Made by a program: the position numbers and the translations under genes. From assembly GCA_030765065.1 (NCBI GenBank), contig CM060980.1:57396364-57460363 (forward strand): DNA of 64,000 nucleotides, read 5' to 3'. Of the stretch, positions 1 to 55,517 are shown piece after piece. The notes under the pieces were generated by a model. It worked only from the letters and a program-made list of their open reading frames with translations, was not told the DNA's origin and ran no database searches. Numbering within the stretch: position 1 is the first letter of the stretch; every line of letters starts with the position of its first letter. The stretch comes from Deroplatys truncata. Lineage: Eukaryota; Arthropoda; Insecta; Mantodea; Mantidae.

Positions 1-1235
1 GCTCTAACTTTTGATTAAATTACCACATATTTAAGAATTTACATTACAAATAAAATGTGTATCTTGAATTTTATACGATAAGGCTGTTAAGTCTTCCTCA
101 TTCGGAAGAATTTTGTATAATTTTGTGTAACGGTAAACCATAAGATATAGATAGAAACGTACTACACAAAACGTAGATCTCTCACAATTTATTTAAAATA
201 ACTTTTATTGTGGCATCACATTATTATTTCTGAGATATTCGCTGTTATTGGTTTGATTTTTCAATACTTCTCACTTTTACTTTCTCTATACGTATAGTAA
301 GTAGGGGAAGTATTGTATTCCACCCAGAAATTCGATACCAAGATTTCACCGGAAATACATGAATCCAAAAAACGAATTTTTTGGAAACATGTCCATGTGT
401 GTGTCTGTGTGTCTGTGAACAGCATAACTCAGAAACGAACAGTCGGATAAATACCAAACTTGGTATTTAGGTTCAGTATCTTCCAGAGATGCGACACGAA
501 GGTTTTCAAGAAAATCCCCCCACCCCAAATTACCCTTTATATGGAAGATTTTTCGAAAATTTTAATTTTCTCAAAAATGGCTCCCACGATGTTGATTAAA
601 ATATCATATGTTTAAGATATTTTCATGACAAATAAAATGTATATCTCGAATTTTCTGGGAATGTCTCCAAAAGTATTCTTCATTGTGAACGACTTTTGCA
701 TAACTGGTAAACTATAAGAGATAGAAAATATTTTACTACACAAAAGTTGTAGATCGCGTTAAAATACACAATTTATGTCATATAATTTTTTTTGTTCGGT
801 GAGCCATTTTCGAGATATTGCTTGTTATTTCCTTAAATTTGCCAATACACTTTTTCTCAAATTCGTTATTCACTTTTTGTCTTGGTAATGCAAAGAGAAT
901 GGAATACTCCACATAGCAACCAGCTCTTAAAATATTTGACTATAGCTTAAAGCCTACCAATTTCCCTTGCATCTACAAGAAAATTAGCAATAAGATTAAC
1001 ATCTCGATATCTCGATTAACATGAAGCATATGGAGAATAAGCGTTTGTAAAAATAGTTAGTACAAGAGTATAGAAAGTCATGTGAGTGTAACACATCAGA
1101 TTTTTTTGAAGTGTTATTGCCATTGAGCTGTTACTCGGGATGTTATGGAAAGAATGACCGCATTTAAACATTTGAATATCACTTCGGTTTCTGAATCCCA
1201 TTTGTACATACAACGAAATGTATAATGAACAGGCA
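1..1235 (+). repeat. Family A repeat copy 1, split by a second A copy
   Basis: Bases 1-274 match the middle of family A: the 'gattaaaatatcacat' segment, then 'cattcggaag...tttgtataa', then 'gagatattc'. This can be seen by comparison with 31201-31500 and 44230-44520. The copy is cut at the window edge. After the copy at 275-1107, A-like sequence resumes near 1140 with the 'atggaaag...aaacatttga' and 'aacgaaatgtataatg' segments, so this copy was interrupted. It has no coding capacity. Family identity is by internal comparison only. Confidence 0.75.
275..1107 (+). repeat. Family A repeat copy 2 (near full length)
   Basis: It starts with TTTACTTTCTCTATACGTAT and the 'aagtaggggaagtattg' block. 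It then runs through the GT-rich tract at 389-418, the 'accaaacttggtattta' block and the 'agatgcgacacgaag' block, and ends with 'agaaagtcatgtgagtgtaa' and a T run. The ends carry an inverted ACTTTCT/AGAAAGT motif, which suggests a non-autonomous DNA transposon. Short reading frames here are by-products of the repeat, not genes. Confidence 0.8.
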
Positions 1236-3722: not shown

Positions 3723-4103
3723 AAAGCTTCTAATGAAATTAATTATACTTCCACACAAGACGTGGGTTGGACAAGGTTAGAAAGGTAGAATCAGATGACT
3801 GAAAAATTCAATGCCATGGCCGGGATTTGAACCACAGATCTCCCGGCCGCCTTCCGGCTGCTCTTACCTTTAAGCTACCATGGCAACATGCCGGTAGGAC
3901 ATTAAATTTCCCAACCAAGATCTCTTGTGGTTTACCGGGAAACATGTAAATCAGTTGGGAAATTTAATGCCTTACCGGCATGTTGCCATGGTAGCTCAAT
4001 GGTTAGAACAACCGGACGGATATCGGGAGATCTGTGGTTCAAATCCCGGCTATGGTATTAAATTTTTCAGTCGTCTGATTCTACCTTTCTAAAGCTTCTA
4101 ATG
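3723..4103. mobile_element. Inverted pair of tRNA-derived SINEs (family S3) with 13-bp target duplication
   Basis: Two S3 copies face each other: the left at 3779-3915 on the minus strand and the right at 3954-4090 on the plus strand. They are separated by a spacer of about 38 nt and could fold into a long hairpin. Each contains a tRNA-like head: box A near TAGCTCAATGGTTAGA and box B GGTTCAAATCCCGG. The perfect direct repeat AAAGCTTCTAATG occurs at 3723-3735 and 4091-4103, immediately outside the element, so the pair looks inserted as one unit. The left copy has about 40 nt of extra 3' sequence that the right lacks. Confidence 0.85.
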
Positions 4104-11460: not shown

Positions 11461-11817
11461 ATTTCTCTAAATGTAATTCTGCTCCATGAGATGAAAGGTA
11501 TATTTTAAACTTTATGGGAATAGCCTGTGGAATCCTCCTCATTCTGAATGACTTTTGTATAATTGATAAACCGCAAAACATAGACAAAAGCTGACTACAC
11601 AAATAATGTAGATCTCATTAAAACACAGAGTTTATGTCAAACAAATTTTATTTTGTGGTGTTAACTATTTCCGAGATATTCCTGGTTATTGGTGTGAATT
11701 TTCAAACAGTTATACTTTTCTTAACTTGGAAGTCGTATTCGATTTTTTTCTCGTGGTCATACAAAGAACTTGTAATTTCAAAACCATAGCGATGCGCTCC
11801 TTAAAAAAATATGATGT

Positions 11818-12703
11818 ATTGCACTCACATGACTTTCTCTACTCTTGTACAAACTATTTTTACAGTTATTCTCCATCTACTTCATGTTAATCGAGCTGTT
11901 AATCTTATTTCTAATTTTCTTGTAGGTGCAAGGGGAATATGGTAGGCTTTAAGCGATAATCAAATCGTTTAAGAACTGGTTGCTATGTGGAGTATTCATT
12001 CTCTTTGCATGTCCAGGACATAAAAAAACGAATTTCGAACTCCCATTTGAGAAAATGTATAAATATTCCAAAATTCAAACAAATAAAAAGGAATATCTCA
12101 GAAATAGTTCACTCCAAAGAAATAAAAAGTATATGACATAAATTGTGTACTTTAACGAGGTCTACATTTATTCTGTAGTAAAATTTGGTCTTATCTCTTA
12201 CCAGTTTACCAGTTATGTGTAAGTCATTCAGAATGAAGAGGACGTTTGGAGATATTCCCAAAAATTCAAGATATACCTACATTTCATTTGCCATAAAATA
12301 TCTTAAACGTCATATTTTAATCAAAATTATTGGAACCATTTCTTAAAAAAAAATCAAAATGTTAAAAGAAATGTTCCATGTAAAGGATAGTTTGGGGTGG
12401 GGGCATTTTCTTGAAAATCTTCGTGTCGCATCTTTGGATGATAGTGAGCTCAAGTACCAAGTTTGATATTTATCTGACTTTTTGTTTTTGAGTTAACCTG
12501 TTCACAGGACACACACACACACACACAGACAGATAGACACGTGCGTACACACACACACACACACACAAACCCTGAGATGTTTCCAAAATGCTTTATTTGG
12601 ATTCAGGGCACCTCAAAACATGTATTTCCTATGAAATTTCGATATCGAATTTTGGGTGGAATACAATACTTCCTCCGCTTACTATACGTAGTAGAGAAAG
12701 TAA
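11818..12703 (-). repeat. Family A repeat copy 4, nested and inverted
   Basis: It begins 'gatgtattgcactcacatga' plus 'ctttctctac' and ends 'actatacgtagtagagaaag', so both termini are present. It carries a CA tract at 12511-12566, the counterpart of the GT tract in plus copies. It lies inside copy 3. Confidence 0.85.
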
Positions 12704-12862
12704 AAACTGACTATTGCTTTGGCTGCTGTATCCTACAACGATATTGTAAATGTGAATTGAAAATTTATCTGGAGTAACAAGAAAATGGATTAAGTTTTGT
12801 AAAGTAGTTTGCAAACGGATGAGCAGAGAAAGTCCTGTGAATGCAACACATCGGATTTTTTA

Positions 12863-28377: not shown

Positions 28378-29767
28378 CACGGCCGTTTCTGAAAATTGCA
28401 ACACCACGAAGGAAACCTGTGAAATTCAATGAATTTAATACCACAGGTTAGGTATATGCCAGGTAACAAATGATAAACTTTTCAAATCTATACATGACTT
28501 TTGAGCCCTAATATTCAGTATTTGGTGAGGCCCGCATGCGCTGCAATTAGAGCCGCTATACGCCGTGGTATTGAATAAAAAAGATTCTGAGTAAGTTCCT
28601 GTGGGATTTACCTCCACGCAGTTTGTATTCGAGCCCACAAATACGTGACACTGGTTACTGGAGGACCGTGACGCACCAAGTGTCGACCAACCATATTCCA
28701 GTCATGTTCGATAGGCGACATGTCAGGTGAACGTGCAGGCCAGGGAAGCAATGGTATCTGTCGCTCTTCGAAGAAGGCTTGTACATTCCTCGCAATATGT
28801 GGCCGGGCATTGTCCTGTTGAAATGTGGCCTTTGGGGCTGCCTGAAGCAGGGGTAGTACCTCAGGCTCTACAACCACCGTTAGGTTCCGGTTGCTGTTCA
28901 AAGTGCCCTCAATTCGTAGGAAGCGAGATCGCTTGTTGTAACCAGTGGCGCCCCAAACCATCACACCTGGTGTTTGTCCGCTATTCCGCTCAACAATGCA
29001 GCTCTCCAGATTGCGCTCACCACGGTACCGCCGGACGCTATGCGGCCATCACTGTGGGACACGTTGAAGCGGGACTCGTCCGAAAAGACTACATTATACC
29101 ACTCAGCACCCCAGTGACGGTGTTCACGTGCTCATTGCAGTCGGAGGAGCTTGTGGTTTCTGGACAATGGAAGCCGACGTAATGGCTGCATGCAACAGCG
29201 GCGACGAACCGTTGATGCAGAAGTTCACACTTGTTGCAATGCTCCAGCGTCGAGCCAACACTGTGGATGAAGCTGTACGGTCCGTTATGGTCATGCGGAA
29301 CAAGATGACGGTCATCCCTTGCTGTGGTCATGTTCAGTGGTCTAGTAACCGCTCTTCGCTGCGTACGACCTTCTTCTATCCACTACTTCCACACACGCAT
29401 CACTGTCGTAGCAGCATGCCCTGTATGAGCCGAAATGTCACGGTATGACAAACCCGCTTCCCGGAGACCGATCATTCTGCACCGTTCGAACTCACTCACA
29501 TGCCGATATGGCTCCCTTTGACGTCGACGAGACATACTGGCACTCTCTTTGTTTGTTTTCGCCTTGTTTGACAGCTCTGCACTGACTACACTGGGCGTAA
29601 CACTGACCTTGTTGGACCGACACGAGAGGGCTCTGTTCAGCCTACGTATACCCCATCTCTCTGCAAACCTAATCACTTATTGCTTGCACACTCTTCTACA
29701 CATCCACCAAGTTTGGAGTTATTCGGAAAATTCTTTCTTGGTGTTGCAAGTTTCACAAACGACAGTG
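28378..29767 (-). mobile_element. Tc1-like transposon nested in mariner
   Basis: The left end is CACGGCCGTTTCTGAAAATT plus GCAACACCA. The right end is its inverse (TTGGTGTTGCAAGTTTCACA plus AACGACAGTG). TA flanks both sides (28376-28377 and 29768-29769). The element is 1390 bp. It is less decayed than the mariner around it, as expected for a younger insertion. Confidence 0.9.
28515..29535 (-). pseudogene. Tc1-like transposase, frameshifted
   Basis: Met at 29535 begins MSRRRQREPYRHVSEFERCR, followed by GLSYRDISAHTGHAATTV (helix-turn-helix). The middle is broken into frames containing DDRHLV and WYNVVFSDESRFNVS-like sequence (first Asp). A long intact C-terminal frame at 28608-28964 carries GVMVWGATGYNKRS-like start, FQQDNARPH (second Asp), and LPWPARSPDMSPIEHDW (Glu), a DD34E-type triad. 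The last part, NLFYSIPRRIAALIAAHAG, is in a shifted frame ending at TGA 28515. It is inactive because of frameshifts, but all three catalytic positions are still readable. Confidence 0.87.
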
Positions 29768-52349: not shown

Positions 52350-52665
52350 CAACACTTTTCCTTCACACTGCGACCAGCACTCGGCGGTTCGGCACCGGCT
52401 GCCGCAGTTCATACTCCGGCCGAAACAGTTATAATATCCCCGCAACCGTCTAGCGTTTTCATATTTTACTGCTACAGTTACAACGATATTAAGAATATAC
52501 CTTATCATAAGATATTTTGGAAATGTCCATCTCTATCCGCAAGTTTCCGGAATCTGTTCAGGAAATTTTCATTCACACTAGGGAGTTCAATATTGAGTGA
52601 ATTTTCCTGCCTGTTACTTTTAGTTCTTTCAATGTATGGGGTTTGTTGAATACACGTTATTTTTG
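52350..52665 (+). repeat. Repeat B, plus arm
   Basis: The segment is homologous to the reverse complement of 54170-54438. Shared blocks are 'ttcacactg', 'gccgaaa.agttat', 'aggaaattttcattca', 'tgagtgaatt' and 'tatggggtttgttg'. A 112-codon frame (52311-52649) spans it. Its counterpart in the other arm is broken, so I do not call it a gene. Confidence 0.7.
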
Positions 52666-52869
52666 AAGTTCCCCCATAGATAAAACTCACAGGGATCACG
52701 AGGGCCACGGTATTTTATGAATTACTTTATCTTCAACATTTTCCTGGATGAAATTTAATGACTCATAAGCTGTGTGCAAAGTAGTCTTGTTGGAAAAAAC
52801 TAGATTGACATTCGACGTCAGTCAGCTGTTCAGTAAGATGGTGTTAGTCATTCCTGTACCCCTTTGCAT

Positions 52870-53872
52870 TTTTACTTTCTCTACTACGTATAGTAAGTAG
52901 GGGAAGTATTGTATTCCACCCAAAAATTCGATACCGAGATTTCACCAGAAATACATGTTTTGTTTTGAGCATTTTTGGAAACATGTCCGTGTGTGTATGT
53001 GTGTGTTTGTCTGTGTGTCTGTGTGTGTGTGTGTGTGTCTGTCTGTCTGTGAACAGCATAACTCAGAAACGAACAGTCGGATAAACACCAAACATGGTAT
53101 TTAGGTTCAGTATCTTCCAGAGATGCGACACAAAAGTTTTCAAGAAAATCCCCCATCCCAGATTACCCTTCACATGGAAGATTTTTCGAAAATTTTAATT
53201 TTCTCAAAAATGGCTACAACGATTTTGATTAAAATATCACATGTTTAAGATATTTTCATGACAAAGTAAATGTATATCTCGAATTTTCTGGGAATGTCTC
53301 CAAAAGTATTCTTCATTGTGAACGACTTTTCCATAACTGATAAACCATAAGAGATAAACAAAATTTACTGTGCAAACAATGTAGATCCCGTTAAATTACA
53401 CATTTTTTATACATTTTTTTTTGATGAGTGAACCATTTTCGAGATATTGCTTATTATTCCCTTAAATTTTCCAATACTTATACTTTTTCTCAAATTCGTT
53501 ATTCCTTTTTCTTATGTCCTGGTAATGCAACATCAACTTTGGTTGCGGCTTGGGTTTATTTATTAATTCGGTTTTGTAAGGTTTCTCCAGATTGATTATT
53601 AAAGTTTTTGTTAGTAATTTCTGTTTTAACAATATTTATATCAGGATTAGGGGCAAATTTTGAATATGATTTAAAGAATGGAATGCGCCACATAGCAACC
53701 AGCGCTTAAAAGATTTGACTATCGCTTATAACCTACCATGTTCCCCTTGCATCTACAAGAAAATTAGCAATAAATCTCGATTAACATGAAGCATATGGAG
53801 AATAAGCGTTTGTAAAAATAGTTTGTACAAGAGTACAGAAAGTCATGTGAGTGTAACACATCAGATTTTTTT
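52870..53872 (+). repeat. Family A full-length copy carrying a mitochondrial insert
   Basis: It runs from 'tttttactttctctactacg' to 'cagaaagtcatgtgagtgta' and 'acacatcagattttttt', very close to the copy at 275-1107. It is interrupted only at 53531-53675 by a mitochondrial fragment. Part of its 3' end is repeated at 53873-54010. Confidence 0.88.
53531..53675 (+). pseudogene. ND5: NUMT: fragment of mitochondrial NADH dehydrogenase subunit 5
   Basis: With the invertebrate mitochondrial code the plus strand is open and reads STLVAAWVYLLIRFC, then DWLLKFLLVISVLTMFMSGL, then GANFEYDLK. This corresponds to the conserved central part of ND5 (family pattern HSSTLVTAGVYLLIRF..MF..GL.ANFE.DLK). TGA at 53593-53595 is read as Trp and ATA as Met. 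The T- and G-rich bias also fits ND5, which is coded on the minority strand in insects. The segment joins family A cleanly at 'ggtaatgcaa' and 'gaatggaatgcgcc', with loss of about 2 bp and no target duplication. Confidence 0.9.
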
Positions 53873-54166
53873 ATGTCCTGGACATACAAAGAGAATAGAA
53901 TACTGCACATAGTAACCATCTCTTAAAATATTTGACTATCGCTTAAAGCCAACCAATTCCCCTTGCATCTACAAGAAAATTAGCAATAAGATTAACATCT
54001 CGATATCTCGAGACACACAGACATACACGTACATGTTTCCAAAAATGATTTTTATGGATTCAGGGGTCTCAAAACATATATTTCCGGTGAAATCTCGGTA
54101 TCGAATTTTTGGGTGGAATGCAATACTTCCCCTACTTACTATACGTAGTAGAGAAAGTAATAAGCT
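53873..54166. repeat. Family A fragments: partial duplicate (plus) and opposed terminus (minus)
   Basis: Bases 53873-54010 repeat the 3' third of A ('ggacatacaaagagaataga' to 'attaacatctcgatatctcg'). Bases 54011-54166 are the 5' part of A in minus orientation, ending 'tatacgtagtagagaaagta'. Together with the copy before, this makes a fold-back arrangement. Confidence 0.8.
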
Positions 54167-54169
54167 GTA

Positions 54170-54438
54170 TGCAACAAACCCCATATATTTCAAGAACTAA
54201 AAGAAAGCATTAGGCGAACAATTCACTCAATTTCGGATATTCAACTCTCGAGTATGAATGAAAATTTCCTGAGAAGATGCCAGAAATATGCGGGTAGAGA
54301 AGGACAACATTTCCAACATCTCTTATGATTAACAATGAGGATGTGAGGGGGTTGGGAGATATAACTATTTCGGCGGGAGTCCGAGCTGCAGCGGCTAGCG
54401 CGGAGCAGCCGTGCGGTGGCGACAGTGTGAAAGAATAG
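54170..54438 (-). repeat. Repeat B, minus arm
   Basis: This is the inverted counterpart of 52350-52665 across the A cluster. It contains the GC-rich part 'gctgcagcggctagcgcgg' and, in reverse, the 'tatggggtttgttgcatac' block. It has diverged, with several indels. Confidence 0.7.
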
Positions 54439-55517
54439 CACTATATAAACAAGCATATTTAAACATGGATAATATTTTTCCAAAACTAGTCTTTTAGATC
54501 GTATCTACTAGTAAATAAATATGTTAGGCATGTTTACTCGAAAGAAGCACTAAAAAGCAGTTCACCAGCCATTTTGGACATTAAATGCGGTATAAAATGT
54601 ATTCAGTCGGAATGATATTTCAGATTTCATAAGCATAACAAAAAGATAGATTTTCTTTATTTGTAACTTTGAAGGATATTGGTTTGCTTAACTAAAAGTC
54701 TGGATTGTTTTTCACGTCCCCCTGAAAGGAATAAATAGGTTCAATGCTCTTAAATTTCGAGGTATGAATATTAATAAAGATGAGTAATATGGCGAGTTGT
54801 CTCCATACACGATACGATTGCAAAAACCAAAATTATCTTTCAATTTACTTCCTCTCATTCAATGTCCTGGGCCAATTTCTGTATTGCTTTTCCTTCTCCT
54901 GCTCTTTCTAAATCATAATAATTGGTTATATTATCTGTTTCACGCTTTCCATTCTTCTTCATATTCGCATTTCAAATCATTCTAGTTTTTCCTCATATTG
55001 CAACGTGAAAGTTTCTGCAATATACATACAACTCTCCAAACAAATCACTAAACTTATTCAAGAATCTTCAGAAAACGCTTCTTTTTTCTGTTAAAAGCTT
55101 CATTGTAGTGTATGGTTTAAATGGAAAAATCATAAACAACGTATCTGATACGTTACAATTCCACGACGTTCCCTAACCTCTAAGATTTATTTTCATACAT
55201 ATTGTACAACTTATTCATGAAACTGTATTCTTTAAAACACGACAGATGTTGGCCGAAATTGTTTCATATATTTTGCTGTAACTATACAGGAGTATGCAGG
55301 ACAGAACGACTATCAAATGTTTTAAAAACAGTCGCCATACGCTGGGCTTGGTAATACTCTTAGCCCCATTAGAAAAATAATGACTGGTGACTTAGCACTT
55401 CGAAAACTATAACATAAAATATAGGAAAATTCAAACTCACAACAGCGAATATATTTTAAATAGTCAAAGGCACAACATTTTGTATTGTATATAAATTGTG
55501 TATTTTTGTGTGTACTT
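54439..55517. other. No recognised feature
   Basis: AT-rich. A few A-like words occur near 55290-55420 ('gactatcaaatgttttaaaa', 'tacgctgggcttgg'), so a decayed minus A fragment may lie there. Confidence 0.45.

Follow-up and report, generated by a model that had tools for sequence, protein, structure and literature searches.

A 144-base internal fragment of the mitochondrial gene ND5 interrupts a copy of the repeat family A in the nuclear DNA of Deroplatys truncata. Very probably, a break in this A copy was sealed by end joining with a loose fragment of mtDNA, leaving a dead numt. The fragment lies on the + strand at positions 53531-53674 of the window, that is, the whole stretch of 64,000 nucleotides analysed here (G000:C6:57396364-57460363). 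The window belongs to the 225-Mb contig C6 of an assembly of 4.29 Gb in 818 contigs, and the repeat is found on both flanks of the insert. The insert is dead, and a function is not evident.

Genetic code 5 leaves the segment 53512-53691 open; the translation contains ...STLVAAWVYLLIRFCKVSPDWLLKFLLVISVLTMFMSGLGANFEYDLK..., in which Trp is encoded once by TGA and Met twice by ATA. The 48-aa code-5 reading of the insert matched Drosophila ND5 of a solved complex I (PDB chain 8b9z_L) over all 48 residues (E = 2.9e-11). The same reading matched the Pfam family PF00361 with 22.6 bits, just above the cut-off of 21.5. At the DNA level, two long stretches of the same genome that resemble mtDNA matched the insert over 148 bp, one at 92.6% and the other at 93.9%; a single local shuffling of the searched DNA left zero matches. 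Judged by its sequence, the insert is a descendant of mtDNA. The initial annotation had named ND5, given its position and proposed a search of the code-5 translation against insect ND5; the open frame with its in-frame TGA and the two database matches bear out both identity and coordinates. The Trp within the motif AAW is encoded by a TGG codon and not by the TGA. Since the six readable long numts (L003-L008) have GGA or GGG (Gly) at this point, the change from Gly to Trp probably arose later, in the nucleus.

The host of the insert is a composite of family A sequences spanning 52869 to 54163. Its first copy (52869 to 53872) is split by ND5 into a part 5′ of the capture (52869..53530, + strand) and a part 3′ of it (53675..53872, + strand); where the latter is matched by the A copies ending at window 1107 and 11802, both matches stop at the same point, within a T run. 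A second, partial copy of the A middle follows head-to-tail (53866..54011, + strand) and has the site without ND5 (CAAAGAGAATAG), and an inverted copy of the A 5′ end (54011..54163, - strand) closes the composite. Two further family A copies in the window, at 272..1107 (+ strand) and 11802..12706 (- strand), contain the site without ND5 at 894-895 and 12003-12004, respectively. The composite is itself enclosed by a larger, imperfect inverted repeat (52355-52661 and 54159-54438, pieces 73-85% alike), and no further copy of these arms was found in the window and the fetched loci. The pattern of the A terminus had zero exact matches in viral_contigs. Several A copies were observed within single 10-kb stretches (L050, L051 and L054), as if A were partly clustered, and the amount of A per 10-kb sample stretch ranged from none in 5 of 16 stretches up to 4.4 kb elsewhere.

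Family A continues in register on either side of the insert. The typical change is from CAA-AG-AGAAT to CAA-[ND5]-AGAAT with 2 bp of A lost, and neither a target duplication nor a poly-A was seen at the ND5 joints. Flanks in register, a loss of about 2 bp and no target duplication had been described before for this insert, and the A copies at 272-1107 (+) and 12706-11802 (-), both with AG at the ND5 position, agree with this description. At the left joint the element reads ...ATGCAA, followed by CATCAAC; because a T precedes that C in the long numts, zero bases are shared and the joint is blunt. At the right joint ...GATTTAA is followed by AGAATGG. In L002, which of all numts matches best (96%), this part reads GATTTAAAGAAGATT, so that AGAA (53675-53678), common to the donor-like sequence and the target, is assignable to either side as a 4-bp overlap; with a donor that read GATTTAAAAAAG, like several other long numts, the overlap would shrink to 1 bp.

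When the joined flanks were used as a query, 20 other distinct A copies in the window and the fetched loci proved to span the site, all of them without ND5. Fifteen of 19 aligned spanning copies read CAA-AGAG at the site and the other four are close variants. One of these four, L050:6381-6691 (89.5%), is the nearest relative among the sampled copies; it also has no ND5 and reads CAA-ACAG (CAA-AC-AGAAT), with the 2 bp kept. A different stretch of ~70 bp, not ND5, begins a few bases to the right of the site in 5 of the 19 aligned copies. All these ND5-free sites belong to paralogous A copies, which stand in here for the exact pre-insertion locus, as numts of the genome do for the donor mtDNA. 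That the ND5 stretch might be a general part of family A has practically no probability left, with no point in its favour and none of the 20 copies carrying it. For this reason, the result that the initial annotation had named as contrary to a capture, the same 145 bp shared by every other A copy, was not seen, and among the sampled copies this candidate is ruled out.

From the joints and the ND5-free copies we infer that a double-strand break arose in the middle of a family A copy and that end joining filled it with a loose mtDNA fragment of ~145 bp from inside ND5. Two A bases would have been lost at the break (AG, or AC if the copy was like its nearest sampled relative), the left ends would have been joined bluntly and the right joint may have been aided by the short shared AGAA. 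The loss of 2 bp, the lack of a target duplication and joints with little or no overlap fit an end-joining capture of mtDNA. Primate numts are described as products of end joining, with blunt joints or 1-7 bp of microhomology and small deletions (PMC2567098, PMC2820518). As reported for 90 primate numts, one blunt side combined with microhomology on the other formed the largest class (33), followed by both sides blunt (30), and deletions occurred in 41 of the 90 (Hazkani-Covo and Covo 2008, PMC2567098; Hazkani-Covo et al. 2010, PMC2820518). The ND5 insert resembles these cases, as far as described there, in its small loss, the missing target duplication and joints that share little or nothing; if the right overlap is 1 bp, the scheme used for primates would class it as blunt on both sides. 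It differs in that the empty site is deduced from paralogous repeat copies and not from the orthologous locus of a sister species.

An intact ND5 frame across the insert would also be expected if a retroelement had inserted reverse-transcribed ND5 RNA. The insert, however, is an internal fragment with no poly-A at the 3′ joint and no target duplication, and two other ND5 matches lie within mtDNA-like stretches that have ~9.4 kb in common and, by eye, mitochondrial genes in frames on both strands, which for those two points to DNA and not one mRNA; we regard such a retrocopy as very improbable. Even less credit is due to an assembly chimera of mitochondrial sequence and an A repeat. The joints between ND5 and A are known from the assembly, which leaves this reading a small opening, but no other scored ND5 match is more than 96% like the insert, the insert has TGG in place of GGA or GGG, and three more numts are found inside A at other points.

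The time and place of the capture are less firmly fixed than its form. A tree of 40 ND5 pieces places the window insert as sister to L002, on a terminal branch of length 0.024; in a tree of 20 A copies (window plus 19), the terminal branches measure 0.042 for the window copy and 0.028 for its nearest relative, which is without ND5. These lengths derive from ~145 bp of ND5 and ~300 bp of A and carry no support values; taken at face value, 0.024 versus 0.042 would fit an order in which the A copy came first and ND5 was captured later, and with so little sequence a firm date is not given. Alternatively, an A copy elsewhere may have taken up ND5 first, the present locus being a transposed or duplicated daughter. 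This history has some room because just 40 of the 406 candidate ND5 places were scored. It is unlikely, given that the window's pair of insert ends occurred in none of the 39 other scored matches, that the insert was present in 0 of 20 other spanning A copies and that the terminal branch of the insert does not exceed the A copy's in length. We thus infer a capture in the present A copy where it is now located, which is likely but unproven. Accordingly, the earlier proposal of a break repaired after the insertion of A stands with regard to mtDNA inside a repeat and joints of end-joining form, whereas its timing in place is likely rather than established.

The genome is rich in numts. Searched against the genome, the 145-bp query had 40 scored ND5 matches, the window included, among 406 candidates; the DNA around all 40 was examined, and 366 candidates were unscored. 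The other 39 scored matches are separate numts, of which 17 comprise <300 bp of mtDNA, 21 comprise >600 bp in the fetched stretch and one measures 397 bp. Among the 40 scored of 406 candidates there was no second case of joints between element and mtDNA common to several copies. Taken at face value, 40 matches could stand for an A subfamily that carried ND5 through the genome; this candidate was rejected, as the flanks reveal separate numts with their own ends. Two long mtDNA-like stretches on contigs C638 and C15 have ~9.4 kb in common and contain long code-5 frames on both strands, which correspond by eye to ND4 and ND5 versus COX and ATP genes; for the long code-5 frames of L041 and L042 the gene names were assigned by eye. 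Two groups of long numts are near-identical, L006, L007 and L008 (99.8%) and L003, L004 and L009 (97-98%), and each group looks like nuclear duplications of one numt. A protein search for relatives of ND5 confirmed none in viral_contigs (85 pattern matches) or genome_contigs (580 pattern matches). No further mitochondrial genes were seen when 498 code-5 frames that contain TGA were crudely inspected by eye in their printed and hydrophobic part, a procedure unable to detect a tRNA numt.

The window contains a second numt, a 60-bp piece of mitochondrial tRNA-Trp (anticodon tca) at 54642..54701, on the - strand with respect to the tRNA gene, located outside A and 1 kb downstream of the ND5 piece. 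It is 87% and 85% like the two mtDNA-like stretches of the same genome, the better match having E = 2e-12 in a 224-kb search. No repeat copy spanning its flanks was found in the window and the fetched loci. The same search, with ~9.4 kb of mtDNA as query and E up to 1e-6, detected no numts in a 160-kb sample of the genome. Elsewhere in the window, two Rfam tRNA matches at 3812-3884 (-) and 3985-4057 (+) stand in divergent orientation 100 bp apart, and ARAGORN predicted zero tRNAs in the window. An open frame at 28608-29048 (-) resembles, by eye, part of a transposase of the Tc1/mariner type.

Three further ND5 numts lie inside other A copies, at L018:790-909, L023:772-908 and L031:747-907 (coordinates counted along the ND5 coding strand); those of L018 and L031 are, by eye, ~13 bp apart in A and have different joints. 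In L025, L029 and L035, family A is present on one side only, 3′ of the numt in ND5 orientation, with the joints of L025 and L035 at or near the A end. A joined-flank test of 23 loci against the window and the fetched loci identified a numt-free site for five, in A for L001 (the window copy), L018, L023 and L031 and in another repeat for L011, and 18 were without such a site. The three further numts inside A and the three beside it had suggested that family A draws mtDNA, for instance through frequent breaks in its copies. A made up 14.8% of a 160-kb sample (16 x 10 kb at round coordinates, with 2,500 of the 160,000 bases being N) and 12.1% of the window. For the comparison, 23 of the 40 numts had a 50-bp value on both sides, seven had one visible side and ten had none. 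Counted by sides, 11 of 46 in the 23 two-sided numts were in A (one-sided p = 0.07), which together with the three loci bordered by A on one side favours an attraction. The signal weakens to 11 of 53 (p = 0.15) when the seven one-sided numts, all outside A, are added, and to 9 of 44 (p = 0.20) or 9 of 51 (p = 0.34) without the window copy. Moreover, the numts flanked by A left and right, 4 of 23 (L001, L018, L023 and L031; two-sided p = 0.77) or 3 of 22 without the window copy (p = 1.0), fit the share of 14.8%, with the placement of L023 resting on values of 0.92 and 0.48. With A at 14.8% of the sample, most of the apparent attraction is gone and we consider it improbable; a preference of numts for A is not shown, and at these numbers a mild one is possible. 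The same figures indicate that the initial annotation overstated the rarity of the capture, given a numt-rich genome, A at ~15% of the sample and three more ND5 numts inside A.

A different regularity emerged post hoc, close to the score limit of the search. Of the other 39 scored ND5 numts, 12 have their left ends within query bases 11-27 (window 53541-53557), beside a G-rich stretch of ND5. The members are L011, L013, L022, L025, L027, L028, L029, L030, L032, L033, L038 and L039; their flanks differ at the joint, and L032 extends further left against one of six references. That the short numts of this genome come from preferred break points in mtDNA is a rather doubtful idea at present. Should the cluster hold on a full count, a defined break site in mtDNA would feed nuclear capture.

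The numt load of insects rises with genome size, as reported for 1,002 insect species (PMC10249859). The present genome is large and repeat-rich and holds many short numts within repeats or close to them, in line with what is described for insect numts (fig wasps, PMC7600805; PMC10249859). In the fig-wasp account, it is mostly transposable elements that later break up or copy numts (PMC7600805), whereas here the repeat was the target and the numt came second.

The ND5 insert is a clear but ordinary case of a well-known process; this genome has numts in plenty, and the literature describes them well. The insert illustrates cleanly how mtDNA can fill a nuclear break, and a single locus alters no view of the process. 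Short ND5-like nuclear pieces of this kind can mislead mitochondrial markers. An abundant repeat such as family A offers many insert-free sites, and hence the joints of numts could become readable at the level of single bases without a sequenced sister species.
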